IMG/VR virus record: IMGVR_UViG_3300009526_000066
Coordinates: 1 to 22,877 of that record
DNA from: a virus
Length of the DNA stretch: 22,877 nucleotides
Reading direction: 5' to 3' (one strand)
The notes below the pieces were generated by a model. The model was not told the DNA's origin, searched no databases, and saw only the letters and a program-made list of their open reading frames with translations. Of this stretch, positions 2,351-21,736 are shown piece after piece (the first letter of the stretch is position 1; every line of letters begins with the position of its first letter). Made by a program: the position numbers and the translations under genes.

Positions 2351-3286
2351 ATGGAAACATTTTTATGGGTCGAGAAGTATCGACCATCAACGGTAGAAGA
2401 ATGTATATTACCTAGTAAACTTAAAACTACTTTTCAAGAGTTTGTTAATGACAAACATATACCCAATTTAATTTTATCTGGTTCTGCTGGAACTGGTAAG
2501 ACAACAATTGCAAAAGCAATGGTTGAACAAATTGGTAGTACTTGGATGATGATAAATGGTTCAGAGGAATCTGGTATAGATGTTCTTAGAACTAAGATTA
2601 AAAACTTTGCATCAACTGTATCACTAGAAGGTGGCCGTAAGTATATCATCTTAGATGAGGCAGATTATTTAAATCCACAATCTACTCAACCTGCCCTTCG
2701 TGGGTTTATGGAAGAGTTTCATAAGAACTGTGGGTTTATTCTTACTTGTAATTACAAGAATAGATTAATTGACCCTTTACAATCAAGATGTTCTAATGTG
2801 GACTTTACAATTCGTAATGGTGAGAGAGTACAACTTGCTGAAAAATTCTTTAAAAGAGTTCTTAATATTTTAAAACAAGAGAATATTAAATCAGAACCTA
2901 AGGCAGTTGCAGAACTAATCAATGCTCACTTTCCTGATTGGAGAAGAGTATTAAATGAATTACAGAGATATTCTACATCTGGTCAAATCGATGCAGGTAT
3001 TCTTGTTAATATTAGTAATGAGAATGTCAAAGAACTTATGGGTTTCTTAAAGGCAAAAGAATTTACTCATGTTCGTAAATGGATTGTTAATAATCTTGAT
3101 AACGATGCTACTAGAATTATTAGAACAATCTATGATTCTCTTTACACTTCTATTGACCATTCTACTATTCCTCATGCAACACTTATACTCGCTGATTATC
3201 AATACAAATCAGCATTTGCGGCTGACCAAGAAATTAACCTACTGGCTTGTATGACAGAACTAATGTCTCAAGTAAAATTTAAATGA
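2351..3286 (+). CDS. 44: Clamp loader large subunit (gp44), AAA+ ATPase
   Basis: The ATPase subunit of the gp44/gp62 clamp loader, which opens gp45 and places it on primer-template junctions. It is 311 aa (T4 gp44: 319). The N-terminus LWVEKYRPSTVEECILP is the typical RFC-family start. Walker A is GSAGTGKT at residues 44-51, Walker B is IILDEAD at 99-105, and the arginine-finger SRC motif is at 145-147. The C-terminal half is the helical collar region. It follows the clamp by 3 bases and its stop overlaps the next ATG (ATGA, 3283-3286). In T4 the next gene would be 62; here three metabolic genes come between. Confidence 0.96.
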   Translation: METFLWVEKYRPSTVEECILPSKLKTTFQEFVNDKHIPNLILSGSAGTGKTTIAKAMVEQIGSTWMMINGSEESGIDVLRTKIKNFASTVSLEGGRKYIILDEADYLNPQSTQPALRGFMEEFHKNCGFILTCNYKNRLIDPLQSRCSNVDFTIRNGERVQLAEKFFKRVLNILKQENIKSEPKAVAELINAHFPDWRRVLNELQRYSTSGQIDAGILVNISNENVKELMGFLKAKEFTHVRKWIVNNLDNDATRIIRTIYDSLYTSIDHSTIPHATLILADYQYKSAFAADQEINLLACMTELMSQVKFK

Positions 3287-3972
3287 AAGAAGATTTTGTT
3301 TCAGTAGAAAAGTTTGAAAGAACTATTGCAGATTTCTTTGGAGCTCCATATGCAGTGGCAACTGATTGTTGTACCAATGCTATAGAACTTTCACTTAGGA
3401 TATCAAATCAATCTTTTGAAACAAAAACATTTTCTAATATATCACCTAGACTAAGGACAAATAGTATTGTTAGTGGTGAAATAAAAGTACCTGTGTACAC
3501 ATACCTTTCAGTTCCTTTCATGTTAAAGAAAAACAATTGGGAGTTTAAATTTACTGATGAAGAGTGGGTAGGATATTATCATTTAACCGAAAGAGTAGTT
3601 GATGCAGCCGTCTATTGGAAAAGAGATGGTTATGTACCTGGTACATTAATGTGTATTAGTTTTTTTAGAAAAAAACATTTGTCAACTGATAGGGGTGGAA
3701 TTATTCTACTTGATAATAAAGATGATTATGAACACTTAATTAAATTAACATATGATGGTAGAGATAGAACGGATACACCATACTATAAACAAAAAATTAA
3801 TATGGGATATCATTATTACATGACAAATGATAAAGCAGAATTAGGTTTAAAAAACTTTGAAATAGTAAAGGACAAAGAACCTGACCCTAGAAGAAAATGG
3901 GATTGGTATTCACCAATTACTGAAATAACAACTGTATTTGAAAATGAAGACATTATTCCTAGTACAAAGTAA
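3283..3972 (+). CDS. DegT/DnrJ/EryC1-type sugar aminotransferase, short form
   Basis: A PLP-dependent aminotransferase of the DegT/DnrJ/EryC1/StrS group, which usually aminates keto-sugars or keto-cyclitols. Visible signatures are GAPYAVATDCCTNAIELSL (residues 20-38, substrate/PLP phosphate loop), VVDAAVYW (D107, contacts the PLP pyridine), SFFRKKHLSTDRGG (127-139) with K131 at the place of the Schiff-base lysine, and MGYHYYMTNDKAELGL (174-189), equivalent to LGYNYRMTELQAAIGL. The protein is only 229 aa, against about 360-400 for the family: nearly all of the C-terminal small domain is missing, yet the frame is intact and the active site complete. It overlaps gene 44 by 4 bases and the next gene by 29, so it belongs to the same operon. 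The substrate is unknown. Confidence 0.83.
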   Translation: MKEDFVSVEKFERTIADFFGAPYAVATDCCTNAIELSLRISNQSFETKTFSNISPRLRTNSIVSGEIKVPVYTYLSVPFMLKKNNWEFKFTDEEWVGYYHLTERVVDAAVYWKRDGYVPGTLMCISFFRKKHLSTDRGGIILLDNKDDYEHLIKLTYDGRDRTDTPYYKQKINMGYHYYMTNDKAELGLKNFEIVKDKEPDPRRKWDWYSPITEITTVFENEDIIPSTK

Positions 3973-4975
3973 TGTGGGTAAAGGACATCATAGTCGTGTC
4001 AATGCCTTTAACAATTACATAGATGATTCTAGAGTTATCACTAAAAGTTTTACTGGTGTAGGTTTAGATATAGATTTTTTTAATTATGAAAAGAATGACT
4101 TACTACAAATGTATAAAGACTACAACCCTGATATAATTGTCACCGAAGGTTTTCCTTTTGGACGATATGGATGGCATCCACATTTTAATAAAACACTTGA
4201 ACATGGTGGTATTATTGATATTTTAGACGATGCTAAGAGCCATAGCAAGGGTATCTATTCTTTAGACAGAGATATTCCTTGGGTTGAACCTGAACAATCT
4301 AGATTTCATGCAAGTGTTTTAAATGAGTATTACAATGGTGTATTATTTCACACAGATAACAATTTCATAAACCCCAAAACAATTATTCACAATCCAATTA
4401 TAGATGTAGATTTTATTAGTACAAATTATGTAACACAATCTTTTAAACACGAAGAAGACCGAAATGGTATCATTGTTTCTGGTGGAGATTGGTATCCACA
4501 TATAGAAAAGTATTACAACACAGCACTTGAATTGCAAAAAAAGATTGGTGGTCAATGGACTTATATTGTTGGTGACAAAACTTCAAACGAAATGATGACC
4601 AAACTTGCTGATTGTGGAACTGTTATTCATAAACCAACTATTAATGAGTATAGAGAATTATTGGCATATCATGAGGTATCAATAAGTGAAATAGGTGCTG
4701 GTACTTGGTTGGATGTTAATTTAACAAAAACACCTTGTGTTATGATACCTAAACAATTTAATAATGGGAGTGTTTGGGATAATTATGGCGAGATAATAAG
4801 TCATGAACAAAAGTATAGGGCAGACCACTATGAAATAGAAGGTGGCGGTAAAGCTTTATTGTATGATGATATTAATATAGATACATTAAATGATGCAATT
4901 GAATATAGTAAAAAATTAAAAGTAAAACAATATAATATGAATGGTAGAGAGTATGTTAGAAAATTTTTCAACTGA
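3944..4975 (+). CDS. GT-B-fold glycosyltransferase-like protein (MurG/PseG-like)
   Basis: A 343-aa protein with the layout of GT-B, NDP-sugar-using enzymes. The N-terminal Rossmann half begins with LFLVQSNVGKGHHSR (about residues 4-18), the G-x-GH-x-x-R loop typical of MurG/PseG-type proteins. The second half begins with NGIIVSGGDWYP (about 174-184) and contains SEIGAGTWLDVNLTKTPCVMIP (about 248-268), which corresponds to the nucleotide-sugar binding stretch before the conserved TP-x-V-x-IP strand. The likely role is transfer or hydrolysis of a nucleotide-activated sugar; acceptor and donor cannot be told. The start is the ATG at 3944; an in-frame TTG at 3938 is less likely. It lies between an aminotransferase and a radical SAM gene with overlaps on both sides, suggesting one pathway. 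Confidence 0.7.
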   Translation: MKTLFLVQSNVGKGHHSRVNAFNNYIDDSRVITKSFTGVGLDIDFFNYEKNDLLQMYKDYNPDIIVTEGFPFGRYGWHPHFNKTLEHGGIIDILDDAKSHSKGIYSLDRDIPWVEPEQSRFHASVLNEYYNGVLFHTDNNFINPKTIIHNPIIDVDFISTNYVTQSFKHEEDRNGIIVSGGDWYPHIEKYYNTALELQKKIGGQWTYIVGDKTSNEMMTKLADCGTVIHKPTINEYRELLAYHEVSISEIGAGTWLDVNLTKTPCVMIPKQFNNGSVWDNYGEIISHEQKYRADHYEIEGGGKALLYDDINIDTLNDAIEYSKKLKVKQYNMNGREYVRKFFN

Positions 4976-5984
4976 ACAATTAGAAACTATTAATTCATTT
5001 GGTTCACACATGGATTCAGCAGTTAATGGTGAGTACCGATACCCACATACTATAGTTTTATTACCAGGTATTTCTTGCATGTACAAATGTACTTTTTGTG
5101 GTCGTAACTATGATGCAGCTTTTAAAAACGATGAAAAATATTATCATGTATTTAAAGATATCATTTATCAAAATAAAGGACGTGCAACAATTAATATCGG
5201 TGGTGGATTAGAACCACTAACAAGTCCTTACTTTGATTTAATTTGTAGAGATTTACTTGATGTTGGTATGAAGTCGAGATTGATTACAAATGGATTTATG
5301 ATGACACCAAAGTATTTAAAAAAGAATCCTTATGTAGAAAAACTTGATACAATTAGAATATCTTTGTATGGTGTAGATGAAGAAGAGTATACAATAACAA
5401 CTAGAAATCCAAAAGGATTTAATCAAGTTAAAGATAACTTGACAAGTATGAAAAGAAAAGTAAAATTAAATTGGGTATTATTACCTACTAACTATTATAA
5501 ACTACCATTGATATTAGATTACATTGAGGATATTGGTGGTGTTGAAGAATTAAGTTTACGAGAAGATTGGTCAGCACAATATCCTATAGAGGATAGAAAA
5601 AGGTTTACTGATATTTTAAATAAGTTTTATGACCTTGCAAATAAACGAGGTGTAAAAGTTCATTATGGTTATTCAATGTATGACTTAATGAATGGTAAAG
5701 AAACTAAACTAGTTAGATGTGAATTAAAACATCTAGATAGTAAACAATCACCACAAACAAAGGTTTATATTGACCCTAAAGGTGATATATACTGTTATAC
5801 AGGAGCTGCATTTTTAGATAGACCTGGTAGTGACAGACACATCTTAGGTAACTGTTATCAATCAACAATTGATGACGCCCTAAAAAACATGAAAGAAATT
5901 GAACCTCAAGAAGGTGATTTAAAGTATATGGATGCACTAAGTCATTTAATTGAAACTTACAAATGGAGTATTCGGAATGTATGA
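4953..5984 (+). CDS. Radical SAM enzyme with SPASM/twitch-like C-terminus
   Basis: A radical S-adenosylmethionine enzyme of about 343 aa. The canonical cluster motif C-MYK-C-TF-C (Cx3Cx2C) is at residues 42-49, and GGGLEP (about 84-89) fits the SAM-binding GGEP motif. Further cysteines near residues 256, 281 (in DPKGDIYCYTGA) and 301 could ligate an auxiliary iron-sulfur cluster as in SPASM or twitch proteins. Members of this class act on sugars, cyclitols, peptides or cofactors. Next to a DegT aminotransferase and a glycosyltransferase, an amino-sugar or aminocyclitol substrate is the simplest inference (DesII, NeoN and AprD4 are radical SAM enzymes of such pathways), but nothing here fixes the reaction. 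An alternative in-frame ATG is at 4941; neither has a strong ribosome site. Confidence 0.85.
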   Translation: MLENFSTEQLETINSFGSHMDSAVNGEYRYPHTIVLLPGISCMYKCTFCGRNYDAAFKNDEKYYHVFKDIIYQNKGRATINIGGGLEPLTSPYFDLICRDLLDVGMKSRLITNGFMMTPKYLKKNPYVEKLDTIRISLYGVDEEEYTITTRNPKGFNQVKDNLTSMKRKVKLNWVLLPTNYYKLPLILDYIEDIGGVEELSLREDWSAQYPIEDRKRFTDILNKFYDLANKRGVKVHYGYSMYDLMNGKETKLVRCELKHLDSKQSPQTKVYIDPKGDIYCYTGAAFLDRPGSDRHILGNCYQSTIDDALKNMKEIEPQEGDLKYMDALSHLIETYKWSIRNV

Positions 5985-6372
5985 ATTGAAAGAATATCTA
6001 AACTCTATTAATTATCAAAAAAATAATCTAATGGATACAGATGACGTAGCATGGGAAAAGAAATACCCTGCTTATATTGTCAACAAATGTCTTGCCCCCT
6101 TTGGCGATACTATTATGCTTGTCAATGAAATGAACATAAGACACCACTTAAACAACAAACTTCAATATAATTTTTTACTAAATAGTTTGCGAACACGAAA
6201 AAGATTTGCACCATGGATGAAATCGAGCAAATCTAAAAACTTGGAGTATGTAAAAGAGTATTATGGTTATAGTAATGAAAAGGCAAAATCTGCTCTTGAC
6301 ATGCTTAGTAATGAACAAATAGATTACATAAAACAAAAATTGAACAGGGGTGGAAAAAATGGAAAGCGTTAG
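5977..6372 (+). CDS. 62: Clamp loader small subunit (gp62)
   Basis: The non-ATPase subunit that assembles with four copies of gp44. It is 131 aa, shorter than T4 gp62 (187), as is usual in marine T4-like phages. The recognisable core is YIVNKCLAPFGDTIMLVNEMN, then HHLNNKLQYNFLLNSLRTRKRF with a following W, equivalent to T4 MVENALSQFPECMPAVYAMN and FNYLMAAVPRGKRYGKW, and a terminal YGYSNEKAKSALDMLSNEQ. The ATG at 5977 is chosen because GGAG (5965-5968) is 8 bases upstream; the longer reading would need a TTG at 5950. It overlaps the radical SAM gene by 8 bases and regA by 14, so the inserted cassette is stitched tightly into the clamp-loader operon. Confidence 0.88.
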   Translation: MYELKEYLNSINYQKNNLMDTDDVAWEKKYPAYIVNKCLAPFGDTIMLVNEMNIRHHLNNKLQYNFLLNSLRTRKRFAPWMKSSKSKNLEYVKEYYGYSNEKAKSALDMLSNEQIDYIKQKLNRGGKNGKR

Positions 6373-6772
6373 TTTTAATAAAGACCAAATGCTTGAGGTA
6401 ACATTAAAAGAGCCAGATGATTTTCTAAAAGTTAGAGAAACATTATCTAGAATCGGTGTTGCTTCAAGAAAAGAAAAAAAGTTATATCAATCGTGTCATA
6501 TTCTTCATAAACAAGGTAAGTATTACATAGTTCACTTTAAAGAACTATTTGCTTTAGACGGCAAAGAAACAAACCTTACAGAGAATGACATATCAAGAAG
6601 AAATAGGATTGCTAGTCTATTAAAAGATTGGGGTCTAATAGATGTTGTTGGTGAAATCGGAGAGATGTCACCTTTAAGTCAAATCAAAATAATAAGTTTT
6701 AAAGAAAAGTCGGAGTGGAATTTGGAAACAAAATATAATATTGGGAAGACTAGGGATGAAAACAGTTTATGA
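6359..6772 (+). CDS. regA: RegA translational repressor of early genes
   Basis: An RNA-binding protein that in T4 blocks ribosome access on early mRNAs. The match to T4 RegA is very clear: LEVTLKEPDDFLKVRETLSR (T4: IEITLKKPEDFLKVKETLTR), LYQSCHILHKQGKYYIVHFKE (T4: LYQSCHILQKKGLYYIVHFKE), RRNRIASLLKDWGLIDVV and KIISFKEKSEWNLETKYNIG. The start at 6359 has AGGGG 8 bases upstream and gives 137 aa, with about 10 residues before the T4 start point; an internal ATG at 6389 would match T4 length but lacks a ribosome site. It lies between 62 and 43 as in T4, except for the amidinotransferase that follows. Confidence 0.96.
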   Translation: MESVSFNKDQMLEVTLKEPDDFLKVRETLSRIGVASRKEKKLYQSCHILHKQGKYYIVHFKELFALDGKETNLTENDISRRNRIASLLKDWGLIDVVGEIGEMSPLSQIKIISFKEKSEWNLETKYNIGKTRDENSL

Positions 6773-7961
6773 TGAGTGGACTAAACTAAAAAAGGTTTTA
6801 ATAGGAAAATCTTTTAAAGTTGACCACATACTTGACGACAATAAATTAAAAATATTACTTGATTATGAACATGAAGTAAATCATAGATATAACAAATATC
6901 TAGATAATAATGTTTCAAATCACATAAGAAGTACTGCTGAAAGTTTATTCGATATATTCGATTCACCTACAATTGATGTATTAAAAAAAGTTCATGATGA
7001 AACAAATGAAGACCTTAACGCACTAGCAGATATTTGTAAATCTTTTGGTGCTGAAGTTGTTCGACCAAATCTTAGGTATGGTGTTGAAAGACAATTAGAA
7101 CATCCAATGCAATGTCGTGATACAGTTGGAAAGATAGGTAATACTATTTTTGAAATAAATACAGCATCACACGATAGACGTATTGAAAATTTTAATCATC
7201 GAGAAGTTTTGTTAGATGAATTTAATGATGGTGCTAGATTTATTGCAATGCCACCTGTGATTACAGAGATAGCAGAGGATTGGAATAACTCTGTTGATGA
7301 TATTGAATCAAGAAACACAACTGCAAATAAAACAATTAAAATTTATAATAAGGCTAGAGAATTTGTTGGCGATACTGCTGCATTCTATAAGTGTGGTAAA
7401 CATATTTTTCATACACATGCCAAACCAGATGAACTGTTAGACATTAAAGAACATTCTAAAATTTGTATAACTGAAAATGGATTAGAGTGGTGGAAAAGAG
7501 AATTTCCTAAACATGAGTTTTTATCTTTAAATGCATATGGCCATGTTGATGGTAAGTTTGCTATTTTAAGACCTGGCTTGGTTATTACTTGGCATGAAAA
7601 GTATGTACCTCAAATTATGAAAGATAACAATTGGGATATTATTTTGATTGATGAATCAGCAAACTTTACTGGTAAGACAATTAAAGAACTATGCGAAGAA
7701 AGAGGATTAAAGAATAAATATCCTTTAGAACATTTACTTGGTGTTTCTCAAGAAACTAGATTCGATTGTAATGTATTATCTTTAGATGAAAATACAATTA
7801 TAACCTCTGGGTATGATAAAAACTTAGCAGATAAACTAAAAAAATATAATATTGACATGATACCTTGGGTTAATCGCTGGAACGTCTTATGGTCTGGTGG
7901 TGCTCATTGTTGTTCAGTTGACTTAGAAAGAGACGGAGAACTTATTAATTATTTCTCTTGA
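6756..7961 (+). CDS. Glycine-amidinotransferase-like enzyme
   Basis: A 401-aa member of the arginine:glycine amidinotransferase (AGAT/StrB) group, which moves the amidino group of arginine onto an amine to make a guanidino compound. All three catalytic residues can be placed against human AGAT: Asp in GDTAAFYKCGKHIF (DAADFIRAGRDIF in AGAT), His in YGHVDGKFAILRPGLVI (HIDATFNIIGPGIVL) and Cys in SGGAHCCSVDLERDGELINYF ([21 protein letters not shown]), at the extreme C-terminus as expected. Length is about normal for the family (AGAT 423 with transit peptide). The start at 6756 has GGGAAG (6743-6748) 7 bases upstream. It overlaps regA by 17 bases and is followed by the polymerase promoter. The amine acceptor is unknown; an amino-sugar made by the cassette at 3283-5984 is one possibility. 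Confidence 0.88.
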   Translation: MKTVYDEWTKLKKVLIGKSFKVDHILDDNKLKILLDYEHEVNHRYNKYLDNNVSNHIRSTAESLFDIFDSPTIDVLKKVHDETNEDLNALADICKSFGAEVVRPNLRYGVERQLEHPMQCRDTVGKIGNTIFEINTASHDRRIENFNHREVLLDEFNDGARFIAMPPVITEIAEDWNNSVDDIESRNTTANKTIKIYNKAREFVGDTAAFYKCGKHIFHTHAKPDELLDIKEHSKICITENGLEWWKREFPKHEFLSLNAYGHVDGKFAILRPGLVITWHEKYVPQIMKDNNWDIILIDESANFTGKTIKELCEERGLKNKYPLEHLLGVSQETRFDCNVLSLDENTIITSGYDKNLADKLKKYNIDMIPWVNRWNVLWSGGAHCCSVDLERDGELINYFS

Positions 7962-10610: not shown

Positions 10611-10800
10611 AGATATAATTGAAAGTGTAATAGATGTAGGTAGTGGTTTCTTTTTAGCCATTATAATACAACTAACTGTGTTTCCATTGTTTGATATGCA
10701 TCCTACTATTTTTGAGAATTTTCAAATTGCAATAATATTTACCATAGTGTCAATGACAAGGTCAGCATTATGGAGGAGATACTTTAGGAGGAAAAGATGA
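10579..10800 (+). CDS. Small two-helix membrane protein (DUF7220-like)
   Basis: A 73-aa protein with two hydrophobic segments: about residues 22-40 (GSGFFLAIIIQLTVFPLF) and 47-60 (FQIAIIFTIVSM), ending in a basic tail (RSALWRRYFRRKR). The pattern ES-x(2)-D-x-G-x-G-x(2)-LA-x(3)-Q-x(3)-FP-x-F, then IFT-x-VS-x-x-RS, matches small phage membrane proteins that I know as DUF7220. Their function is not established; they are usually placed among accessory early genes. The start at 10579 has GAAGG (10566-10570) 8 bases upstream; an in-frame ATG at 10597 is also possible. The stop overlaps the next start (ATGA), and a consensus AGGAGG for the next gene lies inside its end. Confidence 0.72.
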   Translation: MVKRVLMFGNRDIIESVIDVGSGFFLAIIIQLTVFPLFDMHPTIFENFQIAIIFTIVSMTRSALWRRYFRRKR

Positions 10801-11618
10801 TTAATAAATTATTAGAAAATATTATACAAAAGGAAAGAAATGAAAATAATGATATCGCTGTGTTGCTCTCTGGTGGTGTTGATAGTAATACTTGTTTATT
10901 TACATCGTACAAACTAGGTCTATCCGTTCATGGTTACTCTTTTCACATAGAAGGCAATCCTACATATGATTCACTAAAGGCACAAGAGGTTTGCGAAAAG
11001 TTTAATATTCCATTTACAAGTGTTGCAGTACCAATAGATAATTTGGTTGAAGACTTTAAAATGATGGCTTATGAAATGAATTGTAAAAAGAAAGTTCACT
11101 TTGAATGTACTTGGCCATTTCTATACATGTTTCCAAAGATAAAGGAAAAGGTTGTTATATCTGGCGTTGCCGCTGATGGTCATTATGGTTTAAGTAAAAA
11201 AGCAATGATACATTTCAAACACACAAAAGAAAAGTTTGATAAATTTAGAACTGATTACTTTAAAAATGATAATCCAGCTGGGGTGCGACAATTAGAACTA
11301 TTGAGTAAAAAGTACGATAAAATCTTTATTGCCCCTTATTTAAATAAGGAAGTGTTTGATTATTTCATACAGTTTGATTGGGATGGTATCAATAAACCTT
11401 ATGAAAAACACTTAATTAGACAACATTATCCTGAGTTTGATGAGTTAAAACTCAAGAAACACTTGAATTTACAATTAGTTGCAGATATACCAATTATTTT
11501 TGAAAAACTCCTTGACAATAGAGAGATAAACCCATATAATAGAAAAAGAATAATGGATGTATGTCGAGATTGGTCTAATATAGTTCAATCAAAAGGCACA
11601 CTTGAAAGTTTTATATGA
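10797..11618 (+). CDS. Stand-alone asparagine-synthetase-type PP-loop amide synthase
   Basis: A 273-aa ATP-pyrophosphatase of the asparagine synthetase C-terminal family (Asn_synthase, PF00733). The PP-loop is LLSGGVDS (23-30). ISGVAADGHYG (121-131) matches the SGEGADELFGGY motif of AsnB, and APYLNKEVFDYF followed by KPYEKHLIRQHY (179-211) matches VPFLDKKFLDVA and KMEKHILRECF. There is no N-terminal glutaminase domain, so it would use free ammonia, a partner glutaminase or another amine. The family activates a carboxylate by adenylation, then forms an amide. Translation should be strong (AGGAGG at 10786-10791, 5 bases from the ATG). Its stop overlaps the methyltransferase start by 4 bases, which suggests that its carboxylate substrate is made by the two genes that follow. 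QueC, TilS and PAPS reductase were considered; the C-terminal motifs favour the Asn synthetase type. Confidence 0.8.
   Translation: MINKLLENIIQKERNENNDIAVLLSGGVDSNTCLFTSYKLGLSVHGYSFHIEGNPTYDSLKAQEVCEKFNIPFTSVAVPIDNLVEDFKMMAYEMNCKKKVHFECTWPFLYMFPKIKEKVVISGVAADGHYGLSKKAMIHFKHTKEKFDKFRTDYFKNDNPAGVRQLELLSKKYDKIFIAPYLNKEVFDYFIQFDWDGINKPYEKHLIRQHYPEFDELKLKKHLNLQLVADIPIIFEKLLDNREINPYNRKRIMDVCRDWSNIVQSKGTLESFI
11512..11540 (+). promoter_or_regulatory. Perfect-consensus sigma70 promoter inside the amide synthase gene
   Basis: TTGACA (11512-11517), a spacer of exactly 17 bp (11518-11534), and TATAAT (11535-11540): 12 of 12 consensus bases at the optimal spacing. The predicted transcription start is near 11547, about 68 bases before the methyltransferase ATG at 11615. 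It lies inside the upstream coding region but in the right place to give the methyltransferase, the CmoA-like gene and possibly uvsX independent early transcription by host RNA polymerase. Confidence 0.65.
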
Positions 11619-12751
11619 AATACAAACCCTACTTACTTAAAGACGTTTATGCTGGAGAAGCATTAGAAAAGTTTAGAGTAATCTCTACTTTCGCTGGAGG
11701 TGGAGGTTCGTCCACAGGTTACAGACTTGCAGGTGGAAAGATACTTGCAATCAATGAATTTGTCGAAGAGGCAAGAAATACTTACAGAGATAATTATCCT
11801 AACACACCTATACTTGATGGCGATATTAAAGAGTTATCAGGTAAAGACTTTCTAGAACTAACAAAACTAAAAGAGGGTGAATTAGAATTACTTGATGGTA
11901 GTCCACCTTGTTCTGCATTTAGTATGTGTGGTACTCTCGCAAGAGAAGGTACTGTTCATAGTGATGGCTTTGGTAAAACTAAAAATTATTCAGATGGCAA
12001 AACAATAACTAATATTGAGGATTTATTCTTTGAGTTTTTAAGAGTTGCTGAAGTCATTAGGCCAAAGACTATCATTGCAGAAAATGTTGAAGGTCTTACA
12101 GTTGGTGAAGCAAAACAATATTTTAATAAAATTCTAAATACATTTGAAGACATTGGATATCAAGTAGTTGCAAAAGTACATGACTGTTCTAAGTTTGGTG
12201 TTCCACAAAGAAGACGAAGAGTTTTTTTTATGGCAGTAAGAGATGATATTATGGATAAAGTAGGATTAAACTTTATGACTTTATCATCATTATTTCCACA
12301 AGAGAATAAAACAATTACTACTTTACAAGGTGCATTCGATGGTTTGGAATATGACCAAGAAGAACTTGATATGCTTACTACTAAGTGGAAAGACACAGCA
12401 TACTATAAACAAACATGTACATTAATGCCAAGAAATCCTGAGAAGGTTATTACTGGTACAGACTATCATCCTAAAGGATGGCATTTTAATTTAAAGATTG
12501 CTTCAGAGTTTCAGCCGTCACCTACAATTACTGCAATGGGTGCTACAGAAAAAACTGCTGGAGTTTGTCATTGGAATGATGACAGAAAGTTTACATTGGG
12601 TGAACTGAAAAGAGTAACTTCATTACCAGATGATTTTAGACTAACAGGTAAGTGGGCTCAAAAGGCAGAACGATGTGGTAGAATGGTACCAAGTCTTATG
12701 ATGGGTCGTCTTGCAACATCGATGTATGAGAAAGTATTGAGGAATATATAA
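11615..12751 (+). CDS. DNA cytosine-C5 methyltransferase family, motif X Asn replaced by Arg
   Basis: A 378-aa C5-cytosine transferase with the family motifs in order: motif I STFAGGGGSSTGYRLAGG (24-41), motif IV GSPPCSAFS with nucleophile C99, motif VI AENVEG (155-160), motif VIII PQRRRRVFF (197-205), a variable target-recognition region (about 215-320), motif IX with LGELKRVTSLPDDF (328-341) and motif X CGRMVPSLMMGRLA (354-367). Two departures stand out: PPCS instead of PPCQ, and R356 where motif X usually has Asn (GNAVPP type). A basic residue in the corresponding Asn position of engineered M.MpeI (N374K, from memory) allows use of carboxy-SAM. The CmoA-like gene follows directly. I infer a possible cytosine carboxymethyltransferase; ordinary methylation remains the alternative. 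It overlaps the genes on both sides (4 bases and 1 base). Confidence 0.93.
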   Translation: MKYKPYLLKDVYAGEALEKFRVISTFAGGGGSSTGYRLAGGKILAINEFVEEARNTYRDNYPNTPILDGDIKELSGKDFLELTKLKEGELELLDGSPPCSAFSMCGTLAREGTVHSDGFGKTKNYSDGKTITNIEDLFFEFLRVAEVIRPKTIIAENVEGLTVGEAKQYFNKILNTFEDIGYQVVAKVHDCSKFGVPQRRRRVFFMAVRDDIMDKVGLNFMTLSSLFPQENKTITTLQGAFDGLEYDQEELDMLTTKWKDTAYYKQTCTLMPRNPEKVITGTDYHPKGWHFNLKIASEFQPSPTITAMGATEKTAGVCHWNDDRKFTLGELKRVTSLPDDFRLTGKWAQKAERCGRMVPSLMMGRLATSMYEKVLRNI

Positions 12752-13461
12752 TGACAAACGATTTTACATTTGCACATAGAGAAGAAGGATTCGATAATCA
12801 TATCGATAAATCAATTAGAGGATACAGAGACTTAATGAATGATGTTGTATCATTTTCAAGATACTTTGTTGAAGAAAGCAGTTTTGTTATGGACATTGGT
12901 TGTTCAACTGGTAAACTTACAAAAAGAATTATTGAAGAAAACTTTCCACATAAAAAAAATGTTTTCTATGAAGGTATCGAGTACGCAGAAGGTTTTAAAG
13001 AAGACCTTTCAAAAAGGTCAAAAGAAATTTTTGCCATGACTGGTAAAAGTGATTTTCCGGTAGTATCATTTCAAGAAAAAGATATTAGAGACCATTCATG
13101 GAGTAGAAACTATTCCTTTATAACATCTATTTTTACTTTACAGTTTATGCCAAAGAAAAACAGAGAAAAACTTATACGAGAAATATACAATAGTCTTAAC
13201 CCAGGTGGTGCATTTGTATTCGCAGAAAAAGTTTATGCTGAAAATGCAAACTTACAAGACATGTTAACTTTTATGTACTATGACCATAAGAGAGAACACT
13301 TTGATGATAAAGATATTCTTGATAAAGAAAAAACATTAAGACATATGTTAAAACCAAACACTTGGCCTGAAATCAGTAGTTTCTTAACAGGTGCAGGGTT
13401 TAAAAATGTACAAGTCTTTTGGCGTAATCATAATTTTTTAGGTGCGATTGCAGTCAAATGA
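12751..13461 (+). CDS. CmoA-like protein (carboxy-SAM synthase family)
   Basis: A 236-aa class I SAM-binding protein that follows E. coli CmoA along its length: RGYRDLMND with Y25 (CmoA PGYSNIISM, Y39), FVMDIGCSTG (45-54; VYDLGCSLG), EKDIRD (109-114; EGDIRD), FTLQFM (128-133; FTLQFL), LNPGGAFVFAEK (149-160; LNPGGALVLSEK), YDHKRE (177-182; HDFKRA) and [22 protein letters not shown] at the C-terminus ([22 protein letters not shown]). CmoA makes carboxy-SAM from SAM and prephenate for tRNA wobble uridine modification. The carboxylate-binding Arg of CmoA (R199, from memory) aligns with K194 in an ungapped alignment or with E193 otherwise, so activity is not assured. No CmoB is present in the window; the partner here is a DNA methyltransferase one base upstream. 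Confidence 0.8.
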   Translation: MTNDFTFAHREEGFDNHIDKSIRGYRDLMNDVVSFSRYFVEESSFVMDIGCSTGKLTKRIIEENFPHKKNVFYEGIEYAEGFKEDLSKRSKEIFAMTGKSDFPVVSFQEKDIRDHSWSRNYSFITSIFTLQFMPKKNREKLIREIYNSLNPGGAFVFAEKVYAENANLQDMLTFMYYDHKREHFDDKDILDKEKTLRHMLKPNTWPEISSFLTGAGFKNVQVFWRNHNFLGAIAVK

Positions 13462-16681: not shown

Positions 16682-16874
16682 AAAAAGATACTATGTTGGT
16701 GTTGACGATTCTAATTTAAACTATCCTTTTGTTGCAATTGATAAGAAAACAGACAACATTATATGGAATTTTGAGTTTCAAGAGGACGCTGAATTATGGT
16801 GTCATAAACAAAATCACGAACCTACGTTCGGAACTGGCGAAATACCTAAAATGATGCGAATGTATAAAGCATAA
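16653..16874 (+). CDS. Small soluble protein after gp41, unknown function
   Basis: A 73-aa protein. The start at 16653 is set by a strong ribosome site, GGAGG (16643-16647), 5 bases upstream; it overlaps the helicase end by 29 bases. The sequence has a beta-rich first half (KRYYVGVDDSNLNYPFVAIDKKTDNIIWNF) and a short helix with EDAELWCHKQNH. No family is recognised. It closes the early or replication block; a possible late promoter follows. Confidence 0.68.
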   Translation: MRNFKVSKFKKRYYVGVDDSNLNYPFVAIDKKTDNIIWNFEFQEDAELWCHKQNHEPTFGTGEIPKMMRMYKA

Positions 16875-16877
16875 ATA
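16870..16877 (+). promoter_or_regulatory. Candidate late promoter (CATAAATA) before the late block
   Basis: CATAAATA differs in its first base from the T4 late promoter TATAAATA and lies 36 bases before the ATG at 16914. The region 16875-16913 is otherwise AT-rich with TATAATAAATGGGAG, which includes the ribosome site. Placement at the boundary between replication and virion-type genes supports a late promoter, but the first-base mismatch and the overlap with the preceding stop codon weaken it. Confidence 0.35.
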
Positions 16878-16913: not shown

Positions 16914-18245
16914 ATGTCTATTAGACAATATGTACAACAAGTCAGAAATACAAAACAATCTAAACATATTCTAGAAAAACTAGATATTGTTGAAGAGATT
17001 ATTTCAGAGGAAGTACTTCCTAAAGGAGTATTTGCTGAATTACCTTATGAAAAATCTGAAAAACTAACAACTTCAATAAGAGATGTTTATATTGCTCGTT
17101 CTGGTGATAGAGAAAACGACAGAGACGAGATACTTCGAAACCTTAAACAACAAGGTATCAAATCTGCTTTAGGTACAAGTTCATCATCAGTCGACCCAAT
17201 TGATGGCACAATTGGATTTAGAAAATTCCGTATTTTTGTCAAACCAAAATCAGGTGGTATGCAAGAAACAACTTTAAACTCAAGTATCACAGAGTTATTC
17301 CCATGTATTGCATTTGAAAAGAAATACAAACCTTCCAATCCAACAGACTTTCATAAATTTTTATTAGATGTAGATATTAAATCTTTAAACTGCGTTCATA
17401 CAAAAGATGTTGTGGCTGCACAAGAAACTATAAACAAAGCAGATACATCATCTAAGTTTGATGAAAAAATGAAAAATGCAATTGGAATATTAGGATATTT
17501 AAATCAAGAAAACAAAAACAAAAAAATTAAAGATGTCTATTGGGGTTATAGGTCAAGTTCAAAACCACCCGGGGTGCCAGGCAATCATCCAGGTGACATG
17601 TTTATTGAATATTTTGATAAACAAATGTTAGGTGTCAGTTTAAAAGCAGGTGGAAAGAAAACATCTGAACCACAATTAAATACCTATGTTGGAAGAGTAT
17701 TTGATGTATTTAAAGATAGAACTTATGGAAAATTAATTCAACAAGCACACAAAGAAGTTTACTCAAAGATACCAGGCATATCAGATGCAAAATCTTTTAT
17801 ACGAGATAAAAAAACAAAATTAATATTAAAAGATTTTGATAAAAAAAATAATGAAAAATACGAAGAGTATTATAATCAGTATCTAGAAATTATGAGAAAA
17901 GGATTAGTTAATTTATTTAATAAAAACAAACAAGGTTCGATTAACTATATTAAATCTGAAATTTTAAGAGATGCACCAGATGTTCCTACAATTGTTATTA
18001 AAGCAATTGATAGTAGTTATGAAGAAGTAACTGATAAAGATGCTATAGGTGTGTTCTTACCACAAGTTAAATTTATTAAAGCATATGCTGGAAAGTCAAA
18101 ACAAAATTGGTTTATTGAGTTGACATCTGGCCCAGATTCACTTAAAATGAACATGACAGTAAGAACAAATAAATCAGGTCATGCTGGAATGAAAAAGTTA
18201 GGACAGTTTAGTCTTGCAGTTAAATACAACGGATTGGCAAAATGA
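16914..18245 (+). CDS. Large phage protein with possible PD-(D/E)XK-like nuclease core
   Basis: A 443-aa soluble protein of no named family. After an N-terminal helical region it contains TLNSSITELFPCIAF (about 120-134, with E127), GDMFIEY (D228) and MLGVSLKAGG (S242, K244), an E...D...(S)xK arrangement reminiscent of restriction-endonuclease-like folds, where D and the xK strand form the metal site. The usual acidic residue two before the lysine is Ser here, so catalysis is uncertain. SEPQLNTYVGRVFDVF follows. The C-terminal third includes a lysine-rich helical stretch (305-350) and a beta-rich end (KMNMTVRTNKSGHAG). It starts the presumed late block, and its stop overlaps the next gene by 4 bases. 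The nuclease idea rests on motif appearance only. Confidence 0.75.
   Translation: MSIRQYVQQVRNTKQSKHILEKLDIVEEIISEEVLPKGVFAELPYEKSEKLTTSIRDVYIARSGDRENDRDEILRNLKQQGIKSALGTSSSSVDPIDGTIGFRKFRIFVKPKSGGMQETTLNSSITELFPCIAFEKKYKPSNPTDFHKFLLDVDIKSLNCVHTKDVVAAQETINKADTSSKFDEKMKNAIGILGYLNQENKNKKIKDVYWGYRSSSKPPGVPGNHPGDMFIEYFDKQMLGVSLKAGGKKTSEPQLNTYVGRVFDVFKDRTYGKLIQQAHKEVYSKIPGISDAKSFIRDKKTKLILKDFDKKNNEKYEEYYNQYLEIMRKGLVNLFNKNKQGSINYIKSEILRDAPDVPTIVIKAIDSSYEEVTDKDAIGVFLPQVKFIKAYAGKSKQNWFIELTSGPDSLKMNMTVRTNKSGHAGMKKLGQFSLAVKYNGLAK
18120..18148 (+). promoter_or_regulatory. Candidate sigma70-type promoter before the KxDG protein gene
   Basis: TTGACA (18120-18125), a 17-bp spacer and TAAAAT (18143-18148, 5 of 6): 11 of 12 consensus bases, located 93 bases before the ATG at 18242 and inside the upstream gene. 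Other near-consensus pairs occur mid-gene in this window (for example at 5439), so chance is not excluded. Confidence 0.35.
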
Positions 18246-19483
18246 TGAAGTTTACAGATTTACAAGAAAACAAAGCAGGTAAGAATCTTCACCTAGAACA
18301 TTTAGAAGATGAGATTATTAACTTTGGTGTTGATGGTGGAAGAGCTGCAATTAATTTCTTGCGTTCATTAAGAGATATGTTGGCAGGTAATAGTCGTTCA
18401 TCTGTTAATATGACTGTTAAGTGGGATGGTGCTCCAGCTATCTTTGCAGGTATTGACCCAGAGGATGATAAGTTTTTTGTTGCAAAGAAATCAGTTTTCA
18501 ATGTTAATCCAAAATTATATAAAACAAATGAAGAGATAGATGCCGATTTATCTGGCGAATTAAATGCAAAGTTTAAAGTTGCATTAAAAGAATTTTCAAA
18601 ACTTGGTATTGAGAATGTACTTCAGGGTGACCTTATGTTTACAGATGATTTAGAAACAGATACAATCGATGGTGAAAAGTTTATTACATTTCAACCCAAT
18701 ACAATTGTTTATGCTGTACCTGTCGATTCTGATTTTGCAAAGACTATAAAAAAAGCAAAAGTTGGTATTGTCTGGCATACAACATACACAGGAAAAACTT
18801 TACAGGGTATGAAAGCTTCCTTTGGTGCTGACATTAGTAAGTTGACTAAAGTATCAAGCGTTTGGCAAGATGATGCGACATACAAAGATGTATCAGGTGA
18901 GGCAACAATGAATTCCAAAGAAACAGATGCCGTTACATCTTCACTATCATTAGTTGGAAAGACATTTCAAAAGATTAATGCCACTATGTTGAAGAAGTTT
19001 CTTAAATTACAAGAATCTATGACAGGTCAAATTGCAGGTGCATCATGGAAAACATATACAAATAGCAAAGTTCGTAGAGGACAAAAGATAACAAATCCTA
19101 ATAAACACGCATCAGAATATGTTGGGTGGGTAGAAGATTCTATACAAAAACAGATAGATAAAGTCAAATCAGCTGCAGGTAAGAAGAAATATGAGAATAT
19201 TCAGAAACAATATAGTATTGAAATGAAAAAACACGTTAAAAATCTAGTTGAACTGGTAAAGTATCAAAACTTCTTAATTGATGCAAAGATGCAAATCGTC
19301 AGGAAACTAAATAGTGTTAAACAATTAACAGATACGTTTATTCGAACAAATAATGGTTATAAAGTGGTAAACCCAGAGGGTTATGTTGCAATAGATAGAG
19401 TATCTGGTAATGCTGTAAAACTAGTTGATAGAATGGAATTTTCTTTCAATAACTTCACAGCAGTAAAGTCATGGGATAGATGA
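18242..19483 (+). CDS. Phage protein with ligase-like KxDG motif (DUF6267-like)
   Basis: A 413-aa protein of a family widespread in marine T4-like phages that I associate with DUF6267. It opens with LHLEHLEDEIINFGVDGG, then VKWDGAPAIFAG (59-70), where K60-W-D-G has the form of nucleotidyltransferase motif I (KxDG) of DNA/RNA ligases and capping enzymes. The lysine of that motif is adenylated in true ligases. VLQGDLMF (126-133) could be motif III and KVGIVWHTTYTG (173-184) motif IV, with plausible spacings. The C-terminal 180 residues are helical and lysine-rich. I infer a covalent nucleotidyltransferase or a decayed relative; no substrate can be named. It overlaps the preceding stop by 4 bases and the next start by 4 bases. 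Confidence 0.8.
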   Translation: MMKFTDLQENKAGKNLHLEHLEDEIINFGVDGGRAAINFLRSLRDMLAGNSRSSVNMTVKWDGAPAIFAGIDPEDDKFFVAKKSVFNVNPKLYKTNEEIDADLSGELNAKFKVALKEFSKLGIENVLQGDLMFTDDLETDTIDGEKFITFQPNTIVYAVPVDSDFAKTIKKAKVGIVWHTTYTGKTLQGMKASFGADISKLTKVSSVWQDDATYKDVSGEATMNSKETDAVTSSLSLVGKTFQKINATMLKKFLKLQESMTGQIAGASWKTYTNSKVRRGQKITNPNKHASEYVGWVEDSIQKQIDKVKSAAGKKKYENIQKQYSIEMKKHVKNLVELVKYQNFLIDAKMQIVRKLNSVKQLTDTFIRTNNGYKVVNPEGYVAIDRVSGNAVKLVDRMEFSFNNFTAVKSWDR

Positions 19484-19863
19484 AAACATTTAAAGACTTA
19501 GTTTCGACAATCAAAGAACTACGAGTTATATCAGTCGCACAAAGAAGAAAGATTGGTAGAAGAATGGCTCGTCTAGCCAAAACATCAGCATTTAAAGCCA
19601 AAAAAGAAAGAGCAATGAAAAAGATTGCTTCGCCTATGAAACAACGTATCAAGGCAAATAAGATGGCAAAGAAAATTATCATTAACAAATTTTATAAGAA
19701 CTATGACAATATGTCACCTATGCAACGAATGAAAGTTGACCAATTGATTAAAGCAAAATATGGAGCTACGATTGATAAGATTGCAAAGAGAAGTTTAATC
19801 AAAGTTAAAAAGGGCGAGATAGAAAAGGTTAAAAAGGCAAGGATGGCGAATAAAGATGATTAA
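19480..19863 (+). CDS. Highly basic small protein, probably DNA-binding or virion core
   Basis: A 127-aa protein, unusually rich in Lys, Arg and Met (for example RRKIGRRMARLAKTSAFKAKK and MKKIASPMKQRIKANKMAKK), with few acidic residues apart from the C-terminus. It resembles short basic proteins of marine T4-like phages encoded among virion genes, with an N-terminal FKDL-type helix followed by R/K-rich helices and a closing helix DKIAKRSLIKVKKGEIEKV. The expected role is binding to DNA or acidic core proteins inside the head; this is inferred from composition. It overlaps the genes on both sides. Confidence 0.75.
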   Translation: MKTFKDLVSTIKELRVISVAQRRKIGRRMARLAKTSAFKAKKERAMKKIASPMKQRIKANKMAKKIIINKFYKNYDNMSPMQRMKVDQLIKAKYGATIDKIAKRSLIKVKKGEIEKVKKARMANKDD

Positions 19864-21736
19864 AAAATTTAACGTATTTGAAGCACCAGGTAAGAGTGTT
19901 GTATTTGCATTTGGTAGATTTAATCCACCAACAACTGGTCATGAAAAATTAATAGACAAAACAAAACAAGTTGCAGGTTCTAATGATTATAGAATCTATC
20001 CGAGTTTTTCACAGAATCCAAACAAAGACCCTTTACCTCATGCATTAAAAATAGCATATATGAGAAAGATGTTTCCAAAACATAAAAAAAATATTATTGC
20101 TGACAAAAAGGCAATTACTGCTATTAATATTGCAGTTAAGTTATATGACCAAGGGTACACAGATTTAAAAATGGTTGCAGGTTCTGATAGAGTAAAAGAG
20201 TTTGAAACGTTACTAAAAAAATACAATGGAGTTAATGGTAAGAGACACGGTTATTATAAATTTGATAATATAGACGTAGTATCTGCTGGAGAAAGAGACC
20301 CAGACGCTGAAGGTGTTTCTGGTATGTCTGCTTCTAAAATGAGATATCATGCAAACAAAGGTGAGTACGATGATTTTGTTGATGGTCTTCCAACTTCATT
20401 TAAAGACGGAAAAAAATTATTTAGAGATTTAAGAAAATATATGGGAATTAGAGAACAGAAAGATATGGGTAGTATGAATGATTATGAGAGACTAAGAGAC
20501 AATTATCTCACAGGTCAAATTTGGAACATTGGTGATTTAGTCGAAGCAAAAGGAATAGAAGGAAAAATTATTCAAAGAGGAACAAACTATATTACATTTA
20601 ATGACAGAGACGGAAAAGTTCACAAAGCATGGTTGCATGAAGTAAAACAAGATAAAGATGTTAAAGATAAGGCAGGTACACAACCTGCGAAATACTTTGC
20701 AGGTGTTTCTAAAAAAAGTAAAGATGCTAGAGATGCTCACTTTAAAAAAGGTTCAAAAATGGATGATGATAATCCAGCTGCATATGCTCCAGCACCAGGT
20801 GATGCAAAAGGGAAAACTAAACCAAGTAAACATACTAAGAAATATAAACAAATGTTTGGTGAAGATATGCCACAAACTATGGACAAAGACTTACAAGAAA
20901 AAATTGAAGGTTTAGTAAAGAAAGCAGAAAAGTCAGGTATTTCTTACGGAATACTAAAACAAGTTTACAACAGAGGAATGGCTGCATGGAGAACTGGTCA
21001 TAGACCTGGTACTACTCCACAACAATGGGCATTTGCAAGAGTTAATTCTTTTGTAACTAAATCTAAAGGAACATGGGGTGGAGCTGATAAAGATTTAGCT
21101 GCAAAAGCAAGAGGAACAAAAGAGGCTTACGATATAGGTAAACCTTATGCCGACCACACGAAAGAAATAACACCGGGCGAGAATAAAAAAACTACAAAAG
21201 AAGAAATTGAAAAATGGTATAAGAGTGAAACTGTTCAAGAAAAATATGAATTAAAATATGGAAATGAATGGTATATTAAGTTAACGGAAACATATAAAAA
21301 GTTACTTGAAAAAGTTAAACCAGTTGTTCATGAAAACTGTGGCACACCAGATTGTTGTATGCAATGTGATACTGCTGAAACAGTTGTAGTTAAACCTATT
21401 AAAGAGAAAAGAGATTCATTCGGACAATTCATACTTAAAAATGCATGGGGCGAAATAACCGAAGATGCAGAGTATCAAGGAAGAAAAGTTAAACTTAATA
21501 ATCCTACAACAGGTGATAGAAAAAAATATAAAGTTTATGTAAAAAATGACAAAGGTAATGTCGTCAAAGTAGAGTTTGGTGACCCAAATATGTCTATTAA
21601 AAGAGATGACCCAAAAAGAAGAGCCTCATTTAGAGCAAGACATAACTGTGACCAAAAGACTGACAAAACAACAGCAGGTTATTGGTCTTGTAAATTTTGG
21701 AGTACGAAATCCGTAACGGACTTGATGAAGGGATAA
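19856..21736 (+). CDS. Polyvalent virion-type protein with N-terminal nucleotidylyltransferase domain
   Basis: A 626-aa multidomain protein. Residues 13-195 form a cytidylyltransferase/NMNAT-type HIGH domain: FAFGRFNPPTTGHEKLI (17-33) supplies the G-x-F-x-P-x(3)-GH signature, and SGMSASKMR (155-163) the ISSTxxR-type motif. Residues 220-265 read as an SH3/KOW-like barrel (IGDLVEAKGIEGKIIQRG). Then comes a charged linker with AGVSKKSKDARDAHFKKG and APAPGDAKGKTKPSKHTKKY, a DUF5872-like domain (ISYGILKQVYNRGMAAWRTG, 362-381, to about 412), a Cys-rich knot CGTPDCCMQC (495-504), and a C-terminal domain with VYVKNDKGNVVKVEFGDPNM and RARHNCDQKT (560-602). Such domain strings occur in phage polyvalent or injected proteins. 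It is unclear which reaction the nucleotidylyltransferase performs; NAD or CTP-sugar metabolism are the family options. Confidence 0.82.
   Translation: MIKKFNVFEAPGKSVVFAFGRFNPPTTGHEKLIDKTKQVAGSNDYRIYPSFSQNPNKDPLPHALKIAYMRKMFPKHKKNIIADKKAITAINIAVKLYDQGYTDLKMVAGSDRVKEFETLLKKYNGVNGKRHGYYKFDNIDVVSAGERDPDAEGVSGMSASKMRYHANKGEYDDFVDGLPTSFKDGKKLFRDLRKYMGIREQKDMGSMNDYERLRDNYLTGQIWNIGDLVEAKGIEGKIIQRGTNYITFNDRDGKVHKAWLHEVKQDKDVKDKAGTQPAKYFAGVSKKSKDARDAHFKKGSKMDDDNPAAYAPAPGDAKGKTKPSKHTKKYKQMFGEDMPQTMDKDLQEKIEGLVKKAEKSGISYGILKQVYNRGMAAWRTGHRPGTTPQQWAFARVNSFVTKSKGTWGGADKDLAAKARGTKEAYDIGKPYADHTKEITPGENKKTTKEEIEKWYKSETVQEKYELKYGNEWYIKLTETYKKLLEKVKPVVHENCGTPDCCMQCDTAETVVVKPIKEKRDSFGQFILKNAWGEITEDAEYQGRKVKLNNPTTGDRKKYKVYVKNDKGNVVKVEFGDPNMSIKRDDPKRRASFRARHNCDQKTDKTTAGYWSCKFWSTKSVTDLMKG

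Follow-up and report, generated by a model that had tools for sequence, protein, structure and literature searches.

The locus examined here raises the question of which activity is encoded by a phage protein family that has previously been treated as hypothetical. The family member in question is a 413-residue protein, the product of a single open frame (18242-19483, plus strand) in the uncultivated virus record IMGVR_UViG_3300009526_000066, of which a stretch of 22,877 bases was analyzed (the window). A first-pass annotation, made from the sequence of the window, had noticed a ligase-like KxDG motif in this protein and had proposed an undescribed nucleotidyltransferase that many marine phages encode among their late genes. 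The Pfam family PF19782 (DUF6267) was found to cover the full protein, with an E-value of 8.6e-104 and a score of 348 bits against a cut-off of 27 (positions 1-376 of 376). PHROG 455, whose function is not assigned, was also matched, and cyanophage records label the protein as T4-LIKE gene cluster 71. The tblastn searches revealed relatives in 405-469 phage records, mainly of cyanophages and also of phages of Pelagibacter, Methylophilales and Stenotrophomonas, and the family is thus as widespread as had been claimed. No paper naming DUF6267 turned up in a literature search. By its fold and motifs, we place DUF6267 with high confidence in the RNA/DNA ligase superfamily.

The KxDG motif alone is weak evidence, as it was found in 75 of 552 unrelated open reading frames of at least 300 residues; conservation across relatives is what counts. 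The motif was confirmed as VKWDGAP at residues 59-65. Among 263 full-length relatives, there was no variation at K60, D62, G63, K83, Q128, D130, N153, Y157, T180, N274 and K349, and E379, G380 and K393 were kept in 262, although two of the scans that found relatives used K.DG-containing patterns and could favour K.DG in this count. Eight phage-isolate proteins found by tblastn agreed at all 20 positions checked, with every motif residue kept, and in the 139-sequence set used for modelling, motif-bearing relatives reached down to 24% identity to the studied protein. The joint spacing of motifs I, III, IV and V was present in 239 of 264 DUF6267 proteins, as compared with none of the 552 other open reading frames. 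The first-pass placement of motif III at residues 126-133 (VLQGDLMF) was borne out, with Q128 and D130 invariant. Motif IV had been placed at residues 173-184 (KVGIVWHTTYTG), and this segment was ruled out: it holds a conserved strand (H179-T180-x-Y182) instead, the EG pair being located at 379-380 within the true motif IV (379-382), with motif V spanning 391-397. The strand residues and HLEHxED at 17-23 are further unusual invariants of the family.

The AlphaFold2 model, built from the 139-sequence alignment, showed a predicted local distance difference test score (pLDDT) of 89.4 and a predicted template modelling score (pTM) of 0.84, with a pLDDT below 50 for the first 11 residues. In the model, motif I comes after strand 56-59, motif III forms strand 126-133, motif IV runs into strand 381-384 and motif V forms strand 391-394. 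A helical domain is inserted between motifs IIIa and IV, and the alignment revealed that it is smaller in family members of about 300 residues. After motif V, only residues 398-413 follow (16 after R397), forming one short helix, and the chain ends 20 residues past K393.

Structural comparison with VIA-align revealed that the top 39 entries were all ligases. The best match was the Naegleria RNA ligase, which showed a Z-score of 9.1 over 185 residues at 3.8 Å, and it was followed by trypanosome REL1 (TbREL1; 8.5), T4 Rnl2 (8.2) and T4 Rnl1 (8.1). The DNA ligases scored near 7, up to 7.2, and the first unrelated entry was DnaK, a helical match with a Z-score of 6.7. The alignments ended with residue 407 on residue 339 of Naegleria Rnl, residue 406 on 252 of T4 Rnl1 and residue 402 on 233 of T4 Rnl2, which puts K393 on or beside the residues that we take to be the motif V lysines of these enzymes. 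As judged from the predicted model, DUF6267 very probably has the nucleotidyltransferase fold of the RNA/DNA ligase superfamily. The first-pass annotation had named an unrelated fold and a lack of lysine conservation as findings that would speak against its proposal; both were checked, and neither was found. Its nucleotidyltransferase claim is thus partly supported, by the conserved lysine and the predicted fold, while its motif IV was misplaced and the substitutions at D130 and R397 count against it. The leader-like N-terminus and the neighbouring operon genes had escaped it.

T4 RNA ligase 1 (gp63, RnlA), which is also a phage protein, shares with DUF6267 the KxDG motif I, an Ia-like lysine about 20 residues on, an acidic motif III about 60-70 residues on, and an EGYVA...K arrangement of motifs IV and V with a spacing of 13-14 residues. 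The helical domain of T4 Rnl1 lies after motif V, whereas that of DUF6267 is inserted before motif IV, and DUF6267 has a leader peptide and a late operon, whereas T4 Rnl1 is no head protein tagged with a capsid-targeting sequence (CTS). The Rnl2/Rnl5-type ligases (T4 gp24.1, Naegleria Rnl and trypanosome REL1) were the best structural matches, with Z-scores of 8.2-9.1 over 171-196 residues, and like DUF6267 they have no OB fold following the nucleotidyltransferase domain. However, identity to them was only about 10-15%, DUF6267 is without the C-terminal Rnl2 domain, and its motif III has D where those enzymes have E. C-terminal to motif V, we found no family-specific Rnl1 or Rnl2 domain (the helices instead form the insert at 225-357) and no OB-fold domain with motif VI in the model. 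An OB domain is essential to ATP-dependent DNA ligases and is also found in capping enzymes, so that its absence sets DUF6267 apart from both. When hhalign was run against the single sequences of T4 RnlA, RnlB and gp30 and against Rnl1 and Rnl2 alignments, the best result paired motifs IV and V with those of Rnl1; it ranked above the decoy families and was not significant. Because fold and motifs match but the Rnl1 and Rnl2 profiles do not do so significantly, we regard DUF6267 as a ligase-superfamily nucleotidyltransferase and do not count it in the Rnl1 or Rnl2 families.

The DUF6267 gene belongs to four genes that overlap by a few bases (Table 1). Behind an ATAAATA promoter, the order is a hypervariable nuclease-like gene (the slot gene), DUF6267, a small basic gene and a gene for a T/HIGH adenylyltransferase-like protein. 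The ATAAATA core was present 15-70 nucleotides before the slot gene in 80 of 108 loci with long DUF6267 forms, as compared with 0 of 79 dnaB-type helicase genes and 1 of 46 uvsX genes; across 1.6 Mb, it occurred 462 times on the coding strand versus 39 times on the opposite strand. The complete T4 late consensus TATAAATA has one site only in the window, which is not at the operon start. The promoter sequence suggests late-type transcription of the DUF6267 operon, which agrees with the proposed location among late genes.

The N-terminus of the studied protein, MMKFTDLQE/N (the slash marks the end of the leader), resembles a T4 CTS. Other DUF6267 proteins carry MINFNSFITE/DKGG, MKSFTKYLNE/S or MIKFSSFLTE/D ahead of HLEHxED, and T4 IPII and IPIII start with MKTYQEFIAE/A. 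The first ten residues of T4 IPIII are enough to direct a protein to the head; within the T4 leader, targeting depends on residues 4 and 7 and processing on residues 8 and 10, and gp21 cleaves after L/I-x-E (PMC9026906). Of 129 long forms, 73 carried a strict leader pattern, as did 19 of 402 other large open reading frames but none of the 72 short forms; the exact T4 IPIII register was seen in 40 of the 129 long forms, in none of the 72 short forms and in 7 of the 402 background frames. The leader-bearing sequences are related, and nominal p-values therefore overstate the contrast. The strict pattern was also present in the neighbours, namely in 66 of 165 T/HIGH proteins, 17 of 70 small basic proteins and 12 of 91 slot proteins. 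Another explanation is hard to find for the difference between long and short forms and for the presence of the leader on neighbouring proteins whose bodies are unrelated. T4 IPI, IPII, IPIII and Alt have the same features of a short leader (an aromatic residue at 4, a hydrophobic residue at 7 and an L/I-x-E site), late expression and variable cargo genes adjacent; the cargo in T4 comprises an ADP-ribosyltransferase along with small basic proteins, none of which has the ligase fold predicted for DUF6267. The T/HIGH protein was detected in purified virions of S-SM1 (PMC3037559), S-CREM2 (PMC10665884) and S-SCSM1 (PMC9602691). That of S-CREM2 starts with MKNFSSFLTEA, so that leader and virion detection coincide there. 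As far as these N-termini indicate, DUF6267 is likely to be packaged in the head in leader-bearing lineages.

Table 1. Features of the DUF6267 operon and of the encoded protein in the window.
Feature	Position	Strand	Basis and remarks
T4-type late promoter core ATAAATA	16871..16877	+	sequence; 36 nt before the slot gene
Slot gene, 443 residues, PHROG 2496, candidate PD-(D/E)XK-like nuclease (E127...GD228...SLK244)	16914..18245	+	motifs, model
DUF6267 protein, ligase-superfamily nucleotidyltransferase fold (predicted), 413 residues	18242..19483	+	Pfam match, AlphaFold2 model, structural matches
Leader MMKFTDLQE, like T4 CTS, predicted cut after L-Q-E	18242..18268	+	pattern comparison, T4 rules (PMC9026906)
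Motif I VKWDGAP, residues 59-65, nucleotidyl lysine K60	18416..18436	+	K60, D62, G63 in 263/263
FFVAKKSVF, residues 78-86, invariant K83, Ia-like position	18473..18499	+	family conservation
Motif III-like VLQGDLMF, residues 126-133, invariant Q128 and D130	18617..18640	+	conservation, model
Motif IIIa-like PNTIVYA, residues 152-158, invariant N153 and Y157	18695..18715	+	conservation, model
Helical domain, residues 225-357, between motifs IIIa and IV	18914..19312	+	model secondary structure; alignment with short forms
Motif IV EGYVAI, residues 379-384	19376..19393	+	E379, G380 in 262/263
Motif V-like AVKLVDR, residues 391-397, K393 and R397	19412..19432	+	conservation; aligns with T4 Rnl1 EGYVAV..FKIK
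Small basic protein, 127 residues	19480..19863	+	relatives start MKTFxxLxE; weak match to PHROG 805
T/HIGH adenylyl/cytidylyltransferase-like protein (T4-LIKE GC 190 kind), 626 residues, leader MIKKFNVFE/A, DUF5824 domain	19856..21736	+	profile matches

The slot, compared over 118 loci, lies directly behind the late promoter. Its proteins share leader sequences (MSIRQYVQQVRP...SE), and the identity between slot proteins remains near 20% also where the flanking genes reach 80-90%. For DUF6267 pairs that are 80-90% identical, the slot proteins typically show 23% identity, as compared with 68% for T/HIGH and 82% for the helicase. Of the 118 slot proteins, 88 form one highly divergent group with a common E...D...S-L-K (D and SxK each in 87 of 88, E in 83), and many of the remaining ones have PD-(D/E)XK-type motifs, as judged by eye. 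The model of the slot protein was moderate (pTM 0.52), its secondary structure was compatible with PD-(D/E)XK, and residues 24-113 resembled polymerase-beta-type folds (Z-score of 8.8). In the fold search, no nuclease fold matched the nuclease-like part, so that the motifs make the slot protein only a candidate PD-(D/E)XK nuclease; Pfam and PADLOC searches of the slot proteins gave nothing useful. The 127-residue protein is very rich in lysine and arginine and matched the PHROG 805 internal virion protein family weakly (E-value of 0.0034).

Of the long-form loci with sufficient flanking sequence, 100 of 113 had the T/HIGH gene downstream, as compared with 1 of 40 short-form loci. The T/HIGH product, which is of the kind of the cyanophage virion cytidylyltransferase/NMNAT-like protein, is encoded next to DUF6267, has the same leader type and is sometimes part of one polypeptide with it; it differs from DUF6267 in its T/HIGH catalytic fold and in that its presence in virions has already been published. 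The two are fused as a 591-residue protein in the newer S-PM2 record (LN828717, one gene at 3989-5764), whereas the older record (NC_006820) has two frames at 4998-6777, a split that looks like a sequencing error. A single frame was also found in two metagenomic contigs labelled Firmicutes, L280 (1819-4635) and L281 (285-3101), as 939-residue frames of DUF6267, the T/HIGH domain and an extra C-terminal part. The C-terminal half of the T/HIGH protein in the window (20600-21736) contains DUF5824 and a PHROG 7595 segment, both of them domains with no assigned function.

The short DUF6267 forms (about 300 residues, e.g., L084 4010-4900 and L163) have no leader and keep all motifs. They were mostly located away from the operon, frequently amid small unknown genes, and may represent the cytoplasmic counterpart of the long forms. 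Elsewhere in the window (3283-7961 and 10797-13461), genes that look metabolic by sequence are situated amid clamp loader, DNA polymerase and uvsX genes; they comprise a truncated aminotransferase-like gene and glycosyltransferase-like, radical SAM (S-adenosylmethionine), amidinotransferase-like, PP-loop ATPase-like, DNA cytosine methyltransferase and SAM methyltransferase genes.

With the family, motifs, fold, late-type operon and leader computed, we infer a course of events that comprises packaging, nucleotide charging and action on RNA. DUF6267 would be made late from one operon with the variable nuclease-like protein and the T/HIGH adenylyltransferase-like protein. Its leader would draw it into the prohead core, and a gp21-type protease would cut after L-Q-E. 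The enzyme would enter the host with the phage DNA and work before any phage gene expression, loading adenosine monophosphate (or another nucleoside monophosphate) onto K60 and handing the nucleotide to a nucleic-acid end, most likely an RNA end because there is no OB-fold domain. It would most likely reseal RNAs, such as transfer RNAs, cut by host defences; given that it would be ready at injection and has no OB domain, the simplest proposal for its function is early RNA repair or counter-defence. Catalytic activity is probable from the conserved residues. An RNA substrate has an even chance in our estimate, and the whole reading, a head-packaged and injected ligase-superfamily nucleotidyltransferase that probably acts on RNA, is in the balance to the same degree.

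Several observations weigh against this reading, and some of them favour other explanations. Foldseek against the PDB alone was weak (best E-value of 0.083), the hhalign comparisons were not significant with either the Rnl1 alignment (E-value of 0.014, probability of 3%) or the Rnl2 alignment (0.6%), and no ligase was matched when solved structures were searched by sequence, either with the studied protein or with the family profile. The acidic residue of motif III is invariant but is Asp (QGD/QAD) in place of the canonical glutamate (hhxGE), and the second lysine of motif V (K-x-K) is replaced, R397 being located four positions after K393. These departures, as well as late expression, would suit a catalytically dead ligase fold with a structural role in the head or core; such a fold, however, would not require K60, D62, G63, E379 and K393, which are kept practically everywhere down to the most distant relatives, and we consider it highly improbable. 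The cyanophage DUF6267 proteins (P-HM1, S-PM2 and S-RIM2) are without a leader, which means that packaging is not family-wide unless another route exists. DUF6267 is not named in the published virion protein lists that we consulted, no DUF6267 turned up among the S-CREM2 virion genes that were checked alongside the cytidylyltransferase of this phage, and the authors of the virion studies caution that abundant proteins may co-purify. All of this would be expected if the N-terminal sequence were no head-targeting leader and DUF6267 were a late cytoplasmic enzyme that is never packaged, an explanation that the T4 IPIII register of the long forms and the same leader type on unrelated neighbours make fairly unlikely.

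The argument for RNA, moreover, comes from architecture alone. A late DNA-sealing enzyme could close nicks or ends of phage DNA when the DNA is packaged or soon after it is injected, perhaps opposing the adjacent nuclease-like protein; the many DNA ligases among the structural matches, the position of the DUF6267 gene directly after uvsX and a gp41-type helicase, and the nuclease-like gene beside it are consistent with such a role. We nevertheless find it unlikely, as the RNA ligases outscore the DNA ligases structurally and just one short helix, with no OB fold or motif VI, follows motif V. Equally unlikely in our view is that the enzyme joins no ends but transfers the nucleotide to another acceptor (protein, cap or small molecule), the products possibly being passed to the T/HIGH adenylyltransferase. 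The fusions with T/HIGH in S-PM2 and the two metagenomic contigs and the unusual invariants HLEHxED and H179-T180-x-Y182 point in this direction, but capping enzymes have the OB domain that DUF6267 does not, and we know of no protein-modifying enzyme with a ligase-type fold.

The assignment of DUF6267 to the ligase superfamily provides a concrete, testable enzyme for a protein found in hundreds of phage records. If the reading of a head-carried, ligase-fold enzyme is true, DUF6267 would represent a new type of injected phage cargo. A tentative and somewhat improbable extension is that marine T4-like phages inject a three-part kit of an interchangeable nuclease, DUF6267 and T/HIGH, provided with T4-type leaders and made from one late operon, in which the nuclease would hit host or rival nucleic acids and the conserved pair would repair or mark RNA or DNA within the first minutes of an infection. 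The leader of this operon may serve as a general marker for finding further injected proteins in these very abundant ocean phages.
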